Of a stretch of DNA of 64,000 nucleotides, positions 2,762 to 7,377 are shown piece after piece. Numbering within the stretch: position 1 is the first letter of the stretch; the number at the start of each line of letters is the position of its first letter. The DNA is taken from assembly GCA_900467685.1 (NCBI GenBank), contig UBQX01000007.1, positions 62,001 through 126,000 on the forward strand. Direction: 5' to 3'. The DNA is from Hyphomicrobiales bacterium. Its GTDB lineage: Bacteria > Pseudomonadota > Alphaproteobacteria > Rhizobiales > Rhizobiaceae. The notes under the pieces are model-generated. The model had not been told where the DNA came from, searched no databases, and was given only the letters and a program-made list of their open reading frames with translations. Both the position numbers and the translations under genes were made by a program.

Positions 2762-3844
2762 ATGGACATTGGCGTTTTCATCCCGATCGGCAACAATGGC
2801 TGGCTGATTTCCGAGGCCGCACCGCAGTACATGCCGAGCTTCGAACTCAACAAACAGATCGTCCAGAAGGCCGAAAAGTACGGCCTCGAATTCGCGCTTT
2901 CGATGATCAAGCTGCGCGGCTTCGGCGGCAAGACCGAGTTTTGGGACTATAATCTTGAATCCTTTACGCTGATGGCGAGCCTTGCGGCTGTCACCGAGCG
3001 GATCAAGCTCTTCGCCTCCACCGCGGTGCTGACGCTGCCCCCGGCGATCGTTGCCCGCATGGCAACGACGATCGACAACGTTGCGCCCGGCCGCTTCGGC
3101 GTCAACATCGTGTCCGGCTGGCAGATGGCCGAATACGACCAGATGGGCATCTGGCCCGGCAACGACTATTTCGGCTACCGCTACGATTACTCGTCTGAAT
3201 ATGTGCACATCATGAAGGAGCTCTGGACGAAGGGCGAATGCACCTTCGACGGCAAGCACTTCCAGATGAATGACTGCAAGATGAAGCCGATGCCGGCCAA
3301 CAAGATTGAGATCGTGGCCGCCGGACAGAGCCCGCGCGGCATGGAATTCGCCGCCGAATATGCCGACTACAACTTCGTCATGGGCGCCGGCATCAACACG
3401 CCCACAGCCCATAGCGAAGGCAATGTCCGCCTCGTCGAGGCCTCCGCCAAGACCGGCCGCGACGTCGGCGCCTATGTCCTCTTCATGGTCATTGCCGACG
3501 AGACGGACGAACTGGCCAAGGCCAAGTGGGAGAAGTATCGCGCCGGCGCCGATGTCAACGCGCTGGCCTGGATGGCCGATCAGGGCAGCAAGGATGCCTC
3601 GGCCGACAGCTCTTCCACCGCCAAGCACATCAACCTGCCGGAAGGTGCCGTCAACTTCAACATGGGCACGATCGTCGGCTCCTATGCCTCCGTCGCGCGC
3701 ATGCTGGATGAGGCTGCGAGCGTCCCGGGCACCAAGGGCATCATGCTCACCTTCGACGACTTCCTGATCGGTCTCGACCAGTTCGGCCAGCGCATCCAGC
3801 CTCTCATGGCCTCGCGCAACGCCACCAGCATTGCTGCGGAGTGA
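2762..3844 (+). CDS. rutA: RutA-like flavin-dependent oxygenase (LLM class)
   Basis: 360 residues, close to E. coli pyrimidine oxygenase RutA in length and sequence. Shared blocks from memory of that family include IGNNGWLIS near the start, [19 protein letters not shown] (about 42-60), [25 protein letters not shown] and the C-terminal [15 protein letters not shown]. RutA opens the uracil ring between N3 and C4 using FMNH2 and O2, yielding a ureidoacrylate peracid. An AGGAG ribosome site precedes the ATG. No RutF-type flavin reductase, RutC, RutD or RutE is present nearby; instead two amidase-signature hydrolases and an isochorismatase-family hydrolase follow directly. The family call is secure, but the substrate may be a cyclic amide other than uracil. 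Confidence 0.88.
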
Positions 3845-5389
3845 ATGATGAACGTGCTCCAGCCCCTCCCCCACATGGACGTACTGGAGCCGACCTCCTT
3901 CATCGATCCGGGTCATGCGGACGCGCGGCTTTCCGCGCGCCCGTCACCAACGTCAGAAGCTGAGCAACTTGTTGCGATGCCGATCACCGGCGACACGACG
4001 GGCGATGTTTCGCAGGTCGGCATCGGCGGTCTGCTCTCGGCATATGCTCACGGATATCTCGATCCCGTTGTCGTTTTGAACAATCTCACGCATTCGATTG
4101 GTGCCACGCGCGCGGGCGGCGAGGCCGTGCTGCGCTTGGTGTCGGGTGCGACGGACTCCGCCAAAGAAAGCGCAGCCCGATGGGCCGCAGGTACGCCGCG
4201 TCCGCTTGAGGGGGTTCCTTTTGGCGTCAAGGACATCATTGATGTCGCCGGGACGGAAGTCACCAGCGGGTCGCATTTCACCGGACATCGCGTTGCCCCT
4301 GCCGACGCGCATGTCGTCGCACGCCTCAAGGCAGCCGGCGCCATCCCCTTCGCCATGACCGCCACCAGCGAATTTGCCTGCGGCGGCCCGCATAATCCGC
4401 GCTATGGTGCGGTCACCAACCCGTGGGACGTAACACGCTGGACCGGCGGCTCGTCGACCGGCTCAGGCGCAGCGCTTGCAGCGCGCCTCATGCCGCTGGC
4501 ACTCGGCACCGATACCGGCGGCTCGATCCGCGTGCCCTCCTGCTGGTGCGGAACGACGGGCCTGAAGCCCACGCGCGAGAAGGTCTCACGCCATGGCGTG
4601 GCCGCTCTGTCCTGGACGCTCGACCACATTGGGCCGATGGCCCGCTCCGCGCAGGATATCGCCCGCGTCCTGCCTTTCATGACGGCATCGCCAGATCCTC
4701 AACTCGCCAAGGACTGCGCCACCCTTTCCGGAGACCTCGACCTTTCCGGACTGAGGATCGGCGTCGCCACCGGCTGGTTCACCGAGAATGTGGACCAAGC
4801 CGTATTAGCGAATTGGACTGCAGCACTGGAAACGCTGGAAAATCTGGGCTGCGTGCTGATTGACCTGCCGCCCATCGATGTACGCCCTTTCCACGAGGCT
4901 GGCTGGGTCATTCTTCAGAGCGAGCTCGCAGCACTCCACGCCGACAGGGCCGATCGCGCCGATCTCATGGACCCCGGCATGCTCGGCCGTCTGCGCAAGG
5001 GCATGGCCTTCAGCGCCTCTGACTATACGCGCGCACTTCAGGCGCGGGTGACGGCTCAGGACAGCTTCCTTCGTGCGATGGAAAACGTCGATCTCATCAT
5101 CACGCCGGGCATTGGCGGCGAAGCCGGTTCGCTTGAGACGCTTACCGTGGATGTGAACGGCAAGCCTATGAGCTTCCAGGACCTCATTTCGCGAAACACC
5201 ATGATTTTCGATTTCACCGGTTTCCCGGCCCTCATGCTGCCAACGGGCCTGGGCCGCTCAGGCCTGCCCACAGGCATGCAGATTGTCGGACGGCCGCACG
5301 CAGAGGCGCTTTGCCTTTTAGCGGGCGCTGCCTTTCAAGCCGTGACAGCCTATCATTGCCTGGTTCCGCCGGGCGCAGCCTCACCATGA
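3845..5389 (+). CDS. Amidase-signature hydrolase 1
   Basis: 514 residues of the amidase signature family (GatA/AtzF-like). The Ser-cisSer-Lys triad can be placed at Lys129 (FGVKDIID), Ser203 (GGSSTGSG) and Ser227 (GTDTGGSIR). The start follows the oxygenase stop codon directly, with GGAG overlapping that stop; a second ATG at 3848 is equally possible. The first 45 residues have no family match that I recognise. It probably hydrolyses an amide, ureide or carboxamide produced from the oxygenase product. Family members act on many amides, so the exact bond is unknown. Confidence 0.88.
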   Translation: MMNVLQPLPHMDVLEPTSFIDPGHADARLSARPSPTSEAEQLVAMPITGDTTGDVSQVGIGGLLSAYAHGYLDPVVVLNNLTHSIGATRAGGEAVLRLVSGATDSAKESAARWAAGTPRPLEGVPFGVKDIIDVAGTEVTSGSHFTGHRVAPADAHVVARLKAAGAIPFAMTATSEFACGGPHNPRYGAVTNPWDVTRWTGGSSTGSGAALAARLMPLALGTDTGGSIRVPSCWCGTTGLKPTREKVSRHGVAALSWTLDHIGPMARSAQDIARVLPFMTASPDPQLAKDCATLSGDLDLSGLRIGVATGWFTENVDQAVLANWTAALETLENLGCVLIDLPPIDVRPFHEAGWVILQSELAALHADRADRADLMDPGMLGRLRKGMAFSASDYTRALQARVTAQDSFLRAMENVDLIITPGIGGEAGSLETLTVDVNGKPMSFQDLISRNTMIFDFTGFPALMLPTGLGRSGLPTGMQIVGRPHAEALCLLAGAAFQAVTAYHCLVPPGAASP

Positions 5390-5399
5390 AGGCAAAGCC

Positions 5400-6740: not shown

Positions 6741-6750
6741 AGAGGATCAG

Positions 6751-7377
6751 ATGACCGACACCGACCTGAAAGCCAACTACGCCGCCGCCTATAACAACAG
6801 GATTGGCTTTGGCAAAAAACCGGCGCTCATCCTCATCGATTTCGTGCAAGCCTATTTCGAGCCCTCAAGCCCGCTCTATGCCGGGGTCGATGCGGCGCTC
6901 GCCTCGGCGCTCCGAATCCGTTCTGCCGCGCAGGCAAAGGCCATGCCTGTCATCCTGACCGGCGTGGTGCTCCACCGGTCAGGCCTGGATGGTGGCCGCT
7001 TCTTCCAGAAGGCCAAGCCGCTCGCCTGCTTCACCGCCGGAAACCCGCTGGGCGCATGGCCGGAAGGTCTGGCGCCTTGTCCGGATGAGTTCGTGGTGAC
7101 GAAACAATATCCCAGCGCCTTTTTCGGCACGTCACTCGCGCCGCTGCTGGTCAGCATGGGTGTGGACAATGTCATCCTGACAGGTCTGACGACCAGCGGC
7201 TGCGTGCGCGCGAGTTGCGTCGATGCCATGTCGCACGGCTTCATCACAACGGTTGTCAGCGACGCCTGCGGCGACCGTCACCCGGCGCCGCACGAGGCTA
7301 ATCTGTTCGACATGAACGCCAAATATGCCGACGTGGTCACCGAAGCCGAAATCCTCGACTTCATCGCCAGCCTGTAA
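6751..7377 (+). CDS. Isochorismatase-family cysteine hydrolase
   Basis: About 208 residues of the isochorismatase-like hydrolase fold, resembling N-carbamoylsarcosine amidase and maleamate amidohydrolase. Counted from the in-frame ATG at 6733, the catalytic triad is Asp36 (LIDFVQAY), Lys124 (VVTKQYPSAFFGT) and Cys157 (LTTSGCVRAS). I prefer the ATG at 6751 because GAAGAGG lies just upstream; the 6733 start would overlap the preceding gene. RutB in the classical pyrimidine pathway belongs to the same superfamily, so this may do the RutB-type step here, releasing ammonia or carbamate from an acyclic amide. It ends 3 bp from the stop codon of the convergent enoyl-CoA hydratase gene. Confidence 0.87.
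   Translation: MTDTDLKANYAAAYNNRIGFGKKPALILIDFVQAYFEPSSPLYAGVDAALASALRIRSAAQAKAMPVILTGVVLHRSGLDGGRFFQKAKPLACFTAGNPLGAWPEGLAPCPDEFVVTKQYPSAFFGTSLAPLLVSMGVDNVILTGLTTSGCVRASCVDAMSHGFITTVVSDACGDRHPAPHEANLFDMNAKYADVVTEAEILDFIASL

Follow-up and report, generated by a model that had tools for sequence, protein, structure and literature searches.

A conserved and separately regulated RutA paralogue cluster of Rhizobiaceae that probably degrades a cyclic amide other than uracil

What does a RutA-type oxygenase act upon when its gene is followed by amidases and a cysteine hydrolase? RutA is the model for amide cleavage by a flavin N5-peroxide, and its known reaction is the opening of uracil and thymine. 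The question is raised by a four-gene cassette at nt 2762-7377 of the window, i.e., the whole 64,000-nucleotide stretch of Rhizobiaceae DNA analyzed here. All four genes are intact, lie on the forward strand, and either overlap or are spaced by no more than 10 bp, as in an operon. They encode a RutA-family flavin-dependent amide oxygenase of 360 amino acids (2762-3844), here called RutA2 for its non-canonical clade; the amidase-signature hydrolases AmiA (3845-5389) and AmiB (5400-6740); and an isochorismatase-fold cysteine hydrolase, Isoch (6733-7377). Gene coordinates and profile scores agree with the original prediction of a contiguous RutA, two amidases and a Cys hydrolase, and the catalytic residues that it described as complete were indeed located, namely K129/S203/S227 in AmiA, K90/S160/S184 in AmiB and D36/K124/C157 in Isoch.

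The cassette belongs to a larger unit with two arms, of which the divergent one lies mostly beyond the left edge of the window on the same contig. The 5' end of a gene for a CUT2-type ABC substrate-binding protein (Peripla_BP_4) occupies nt 1-67 on the reverse strand, its remainder being to the left of the window, and the ABC ATPase, the permease, an AtzE-like amidase 3 (Ami3) and a RutF-type flavin reductase are encoded on the strand opposite to the cassette (G000:C36:56172-62067, locus L072). Of 30 Rhizobiaceae-type loci, 29 have an adjacent MFS transporter gene (here 352-1593, reverse strand), and a GntR/UTRA-family (HutC-like) regulator (1734-2531, forward strand) is presumably a ligand-responsive repressor, judging from the operator placement described below. 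The uptake genes, ABC importer and MFS alike, are dedicated to the cluster; for the binding protein, the matches among solved structures were weak and of the sugar-binding type, offering no clue to its ligand. The reductase scored 254.9 bits against a RutF cut-off of 254.75, a borderline result. It had been stated that rutC, D, E, F and a permease were missing; for rutF and the permease this holds inside 2762-7377 but not beyond, and "no rutF" was wrong, since a RutF-type reductase sits in the divergent arm next to the CUT2 importer genes. Similarly, the opened ring was to be cut by three hydrolases, which are indeed present, but they number four when Ami3 is counted.

By score, the window protein would pass for an ordinary RutA, since it reached 624.6 bits with TIGR03612, the cut-off of which is 498.3, and matched the E. 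coli RutA structures with 535 bits. However, two paralogues lying side by side in one locus (L109) scored 532.5 and, with a truncated query, 491.4; with such neighbors above or close to the cut-off, the score has no discriminating power. As a separate matter of annotation, the equivalog cut-off of this NCBIfam model admits paralogues from other gene neighborhoods, and "pyrimidine utilization protein A" is over-called. In a quick tree of 109 proteins, built with SH-aLRT supports and without bootstrap, E. coli RutA and the rutBCD-linked RutAs formed one clade (9 rows, SH-aLRT 100). The window protein fell outside this clade, in a 33-row Rhizobiaceae-type group (SH-aLRT 99) that is part of a larger set of alphaproteobacterial proteins joined by some from actinobacteria.

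The published O2-pocket motif of RutA-type N5-peroxyflavin amide oxygenases consists of L65, T/S105, N134, V136 and F224 (PMC8234197). The pocket and cavity residues L65, N134, V136, W139 and F224 do not vary among the RutA2 rows, nor do M67 and K69, while position 105 has changed from Thr to Ser, which the motif allows. With these active-site residues conserved, the same chemistry is expected of RutA2 as of RutA. Nonetheless, the two clades have different fixed residues at 27 positions, several of them at 290-318 near E292, a residue that borders the substrate-side cavity, and on these sequence grounds a change of substrate relative to RutA is plausible.

The gene neighborhoods separate the two types as well. 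RutB/C/D accompany RutA in all seven canonical loci, none of which has amidases, whereas they occur in 0 of 30 Rhizobiaceae-type and 1 of 50 other non-canonical loci; this single locus, of Novosphingobium Leaf2 (L145), accommodates both types, canonical operon and alternative cluster, side by side within 10 kb. An amidase-signature gene lies beside RutA2 in 29 of the 30 Rhizobiaceae-type loci and is found in 39 of the 50 others, and the order of left arm, MFS, GntR and RutA is kept in 28 of the 30. Among 298 sampled genomes of the family, canonical RutA was found in 18, RutA2 in 14 and both in 7; these counts are statistically confounded by phylogeny, but since seven genomes hold both types, one does not replace the other. 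A canonical rut operon was ruled out by the absence of RutB/C/D and by the RutA phylogeny, and no description of the RutA2 cluster was found in literature searches.

Around this core, the content varies. RutE (malonic semialdehyde reductase) is adjacent in some relatives only; an isocitrate-lyase-superfamily lyase occurs in 13 of the 30 Rhizobiaceae-type loci and is missing from the window's cluster; and Asp/Glu racemase-fold genes adjoin several clusters. A minimal trio of RutA, Isoch and the lyase is found in BTAi1 (L108) and Lichenifustis (L115), and five loci (L109, L113, L123, L125, L143) carry two or three RutA paralogues each. Since AmiB, Isoch, the lyase and RutE differ between genomes, the downstream chemistry may not be uniform. 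A few other contexts were recorded in passing. Two of the multi-paralogue loci (L109, L123), of 20 kb each, encode a polyamine-type ABC importer, an amidase and an asparaginase-family protein in addition to three RutA-family proteins. In the Rhodobacterales RutA2 loci L066, L125, L143 and L157, a stand-alone RibB-like (DHBP synthase) gene adjoins the RutF-like reductase, and on a Roseomonas plasmid (L070) a RutA-family gene stands directly behind the genes of an arylmalonate-decarboxylase-family protein and of a peptide-type ABC importer, a RutA context that is unexplained.

Comparison of the intergenic regions in 33 loci revealed a 12-bp palindrome-like operator, WGTWCGTACATA. In the window it is found as TGTACGTACATA at 135-146 (forward strand), upstream of the arm with the ABC, amidase 3 and RutF genes; as AGTACGTACATA at 1613-1624 (reverse strand), between the divergent MFS and GntR genes; and as AGTTCGTACATA at 2710-2721 (forward strand), 40 bp upstream of the start codon of RutA. 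Its core, GTACATA, is shared by 31 of 33 GntR-RutA intervals and 20 of 33 MFS-GntR intervals (at most 2 in shuffles of either), and by 22 of the 32 intervals that precede the gene for the binding protein (at most 4 in shuffles), although the loci are related and the counts are hence not independent events. In the entire 5.05-Mb genome, WGTWCGTACATA is present exactly three times, once at each of the three promoters of the cluster. This placement delimits the regulon and links the two arms to the local GntR, which, from its position, would be the protein that binds the operator.

Other genomes agreed with this assignment. Three of the same genus that carry the cluster have exactly three sites each, all inside it, and in two that lack the cluster the numbers are 0 and 1. 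As for more distant Rhizobiaceae, 9 of 10 RutA2 genomes (the exception being G020) contain one to three sites, in the cluster save one; this off-cluster match, in G290, lies among chemotaxis and flagellar genes and was taken as chance. The operator was absent from three genomes with canonical RutA only, and no site was found at the canonical operon in the seven genomes with both types. The paralogues are therefore separately regulated; it is to be noted that their coexistence documents separate regulation, not a different substrate. The gene set, its conservation, the paralogue status of RutA2 and the operator regulon are direct readings of the sequences. The genes to the right (7381-15526; enoyl-CoA hydratase, SDR, aldehyde dehydrogenase and Dpp-type ABC) were considered as parts of the cluster and rejected, being operator-free, on the opposite strand, and not conserved beside it in same-genus genomes. 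Beyond them, 15533-24387 forms a separate catabolic locus with an M20 deacylase (PRK13013, 759 bits), a GntR, a polyamine-type ABC importer, an Asp/Glu/hydantoin racemase family protein and an acetyltransferase. The binding protein encoded there has relatives of 53-65% identity beside RutA paralogues in L109, L110, L112 and L123, and racemase-family genes are also present in L109 and L110.

Could the cluster nonetheless be an alternative Rut-type route for plain uracil or thymine? Here, RutA2 would produce ureidoacrylate, Isoch would replace RutB, and spontaneous or housekeeping steps would replace RutC and RutD; aminoacrylate can hydrolyze without either of these. In common with the E. coli Rut pathway (rutABCDEFG), the cluster has a RutA-family FMN oxygenase at equivalog score, an invariant active-site core, a RutF-type reductase, an isochorismatase-fold hydrolase and, in some relatives, an adjacent RutE. 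The motif is near-identical to that of E. coli RutA, so uracil-type substrates, including uracil and thymine themselves, could be accepted by RutA2, which speaks against the non-uracil reading. Unlike the Rut pathway, the cluster combines a separate RutA clade with four other hydrolases in place of RutB/C/D, a CUT2 ABC importer and an MFS carrier in place of a nucleobase permease, and GntR in place of RutR. Isoch is far from RutB (39.4 vs 378 bits) and is not that enzyme, and uracil breakdown would leave four amidases without a role. Seven genomes, moreover, keep both systems, within 10 kb of each other in Novosphingobium Leaf2. A rut set elsewhere in the host genome would have undercut the original prediction; in the search for RutB, RutC and RutD, none was found at the family cut-off (best 122 vs 378, 45 vs 169 and 59.5 vs 238.5 bits, respectively). 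The host does possess reductive-pathway genes on contig C42, encoding PreA (732 vs 335 bits), dihydropyrimidinase (588.7 vs 393) and a hydantoinase/carbamoylase-family amidase, and because of these, ordinary uracil breakdown probably does not need the RutA2 cluster. Overall, a plain-uracil route is unlikely.

The hydrolases offer a second view of the substrate. AmiB is nearest to malonamidase E2 (203.5 bits), and its R187, three residues past the nucleophile S184 of the Ser-cisSer-Lys triad, aligns with Arg158, which has a substrate role in malonamidase E2. The corresponding spacing, GGS[TVL][IM]R, is kept by 45 of 45 AmiB-type proteins, in contrast to GGS-I-R in the AtzE-like amidases. With the Bradyrhizobium japonicum enzyme, AmiB thus shares both the triad and the Arg158-equivalent spacing GGS[TV]IR; the two differ in that the similarity is moderate and the AmiB gene is inside a RutA operon. 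For AmiA and Ami3, the nearest solved structure is AtzE (6c62, 187 bits for AmiA), and Isoch has the cysteine-hydrolase fold of BiuH, which recalls the cyanuric acid pathway (AtzE, BiuH, AtzF). However, AmiA and Ami3 missed the AtzE cut-off (262 and 364 vs 461 bits), as Isoch missed that of BiuH (46 vs 370 bits), and a cyanuric acid/biuret pathway was rejected since these scores are too far under the cut-offs. The nearest solved relatives of Isoch are N-carbamoylsarcosine amidohydrolase and 3ot4/3uao, of which 3uao is maleamate amidohydrolase (NicF); the catalytic D/K/C is kept, but sarcosine, creatinine or nicotinate genes were not noted beside Isoch.

These relatives bring up a non-pyrimidine conjugated lactam or imide, of the pyridone or maleimide type, from which RutA2 would generate a maleamate- or malonamate-like mono-amide; amidases would convert this to a diacid, the substrate of an isocitrate-lyase-superfamily lyase or an Asp/Glu-racemase-superfamily enzyme. 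The position of Isoch near N-carbamoylsarcosine amidohydrolase and 3ot4/3uao, that of AmiB near malonamidase, the trio in L108 and L115, the lyase in 13 of 30 loci, and the racemase-fold genes beside several clusters all fit such a route. We consider it rather unlikely, since the lyase is missing in the window's cluster and in more than half of its relatives, the core of the RutA pocket is that of the uracil enzyme, and the AtzE-like amidases and RutE better fit ureido and three-carbon chemistry. Finally, a chance neighborhood of unrelated amidases beside a uracil RutA, conceivable because amidase-signature genes are common in such genomes, is extremely improbable, given an arrangement kept in 28 of 30 loci and an operator whose sole occurrences in the genome are at the three promoters.

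The cluster is thus probably a self-contained catabolic regulon under the control of GntR, and its substrate a cyclic (hetero)amide that is not plain uracil. Of the original proposal of an undescribed non-uracil pathway, what stands is that this is not a rut operon and that it has a separate RutA lineage, its own regulator and operator, and coexists with rut in seven genomes; the non-uracil substrate itself is only plausible, and no enzyme of the cluster singles out one compound. A modified pyrimidine, e.g., an amino-, oxo- or glycosyl-substituted uracil, is the most likely substrate of RutA2, and another conjugated lactam or imide is less likely. We infer every reaction of the pathway, and its substrate, as follows. 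The compound would be imported by the ABC importer and the MFS carrier, and FMNH2 would be supplied by RutF, at the level of its family. Considering the conserved active site, a flavin N5-peroxide of RutA2 would then cleave the N-C(=O) bond of a conjugated ring amide, as RutA does on uracil. Isoch and the two AtzE-like amidases may strip nitrogen from ureido/carbamoyl or amide groups, and a dicarboxylic mono-amide may be hydrolyzed by AmiB, the enzyme that resembles malonamidase E2. Carbon would leave as a malonate-like acid or malonic semialdehyde (with RutE in some relatives), or elsewhere be cut by the isocitrate-lyase-superfamily enzyme. The relatives of AmiB, AmiA/Ami3 and Isoch, together with RutE or the lyase in related loci, thus suggest that nitrogen is released from ureido and mono-amide groups and that a small dicarboxylate or semialdehyde is left.

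In a broader context, the cluster is likely to represent an undescribed catabolic pathway that is widespread in alphaproteobacteria and is shared by some actinobacteria. Its RutA paralogues, of which one locus can hold as many as three, would open non-uracil cyclic amides by oxygenolysis, and its amidases would recover all of the nitrogen. That a large clade of RutA paralogues has its own regulon implies that N5-peroxide amide cleavage has natural substrates beyond those known, and the widespread RutA2 gene set is mislabeled as uracil-degrading by public annotation and the family model. Through the operator and the ligand of GntR, the search for the substrate is open to direct experiment. For the host, a soil and plant bacterium, the implication is a gene set that looks like one for uracil breakdown, although the ring-shaped amide that it degrades is probably another.
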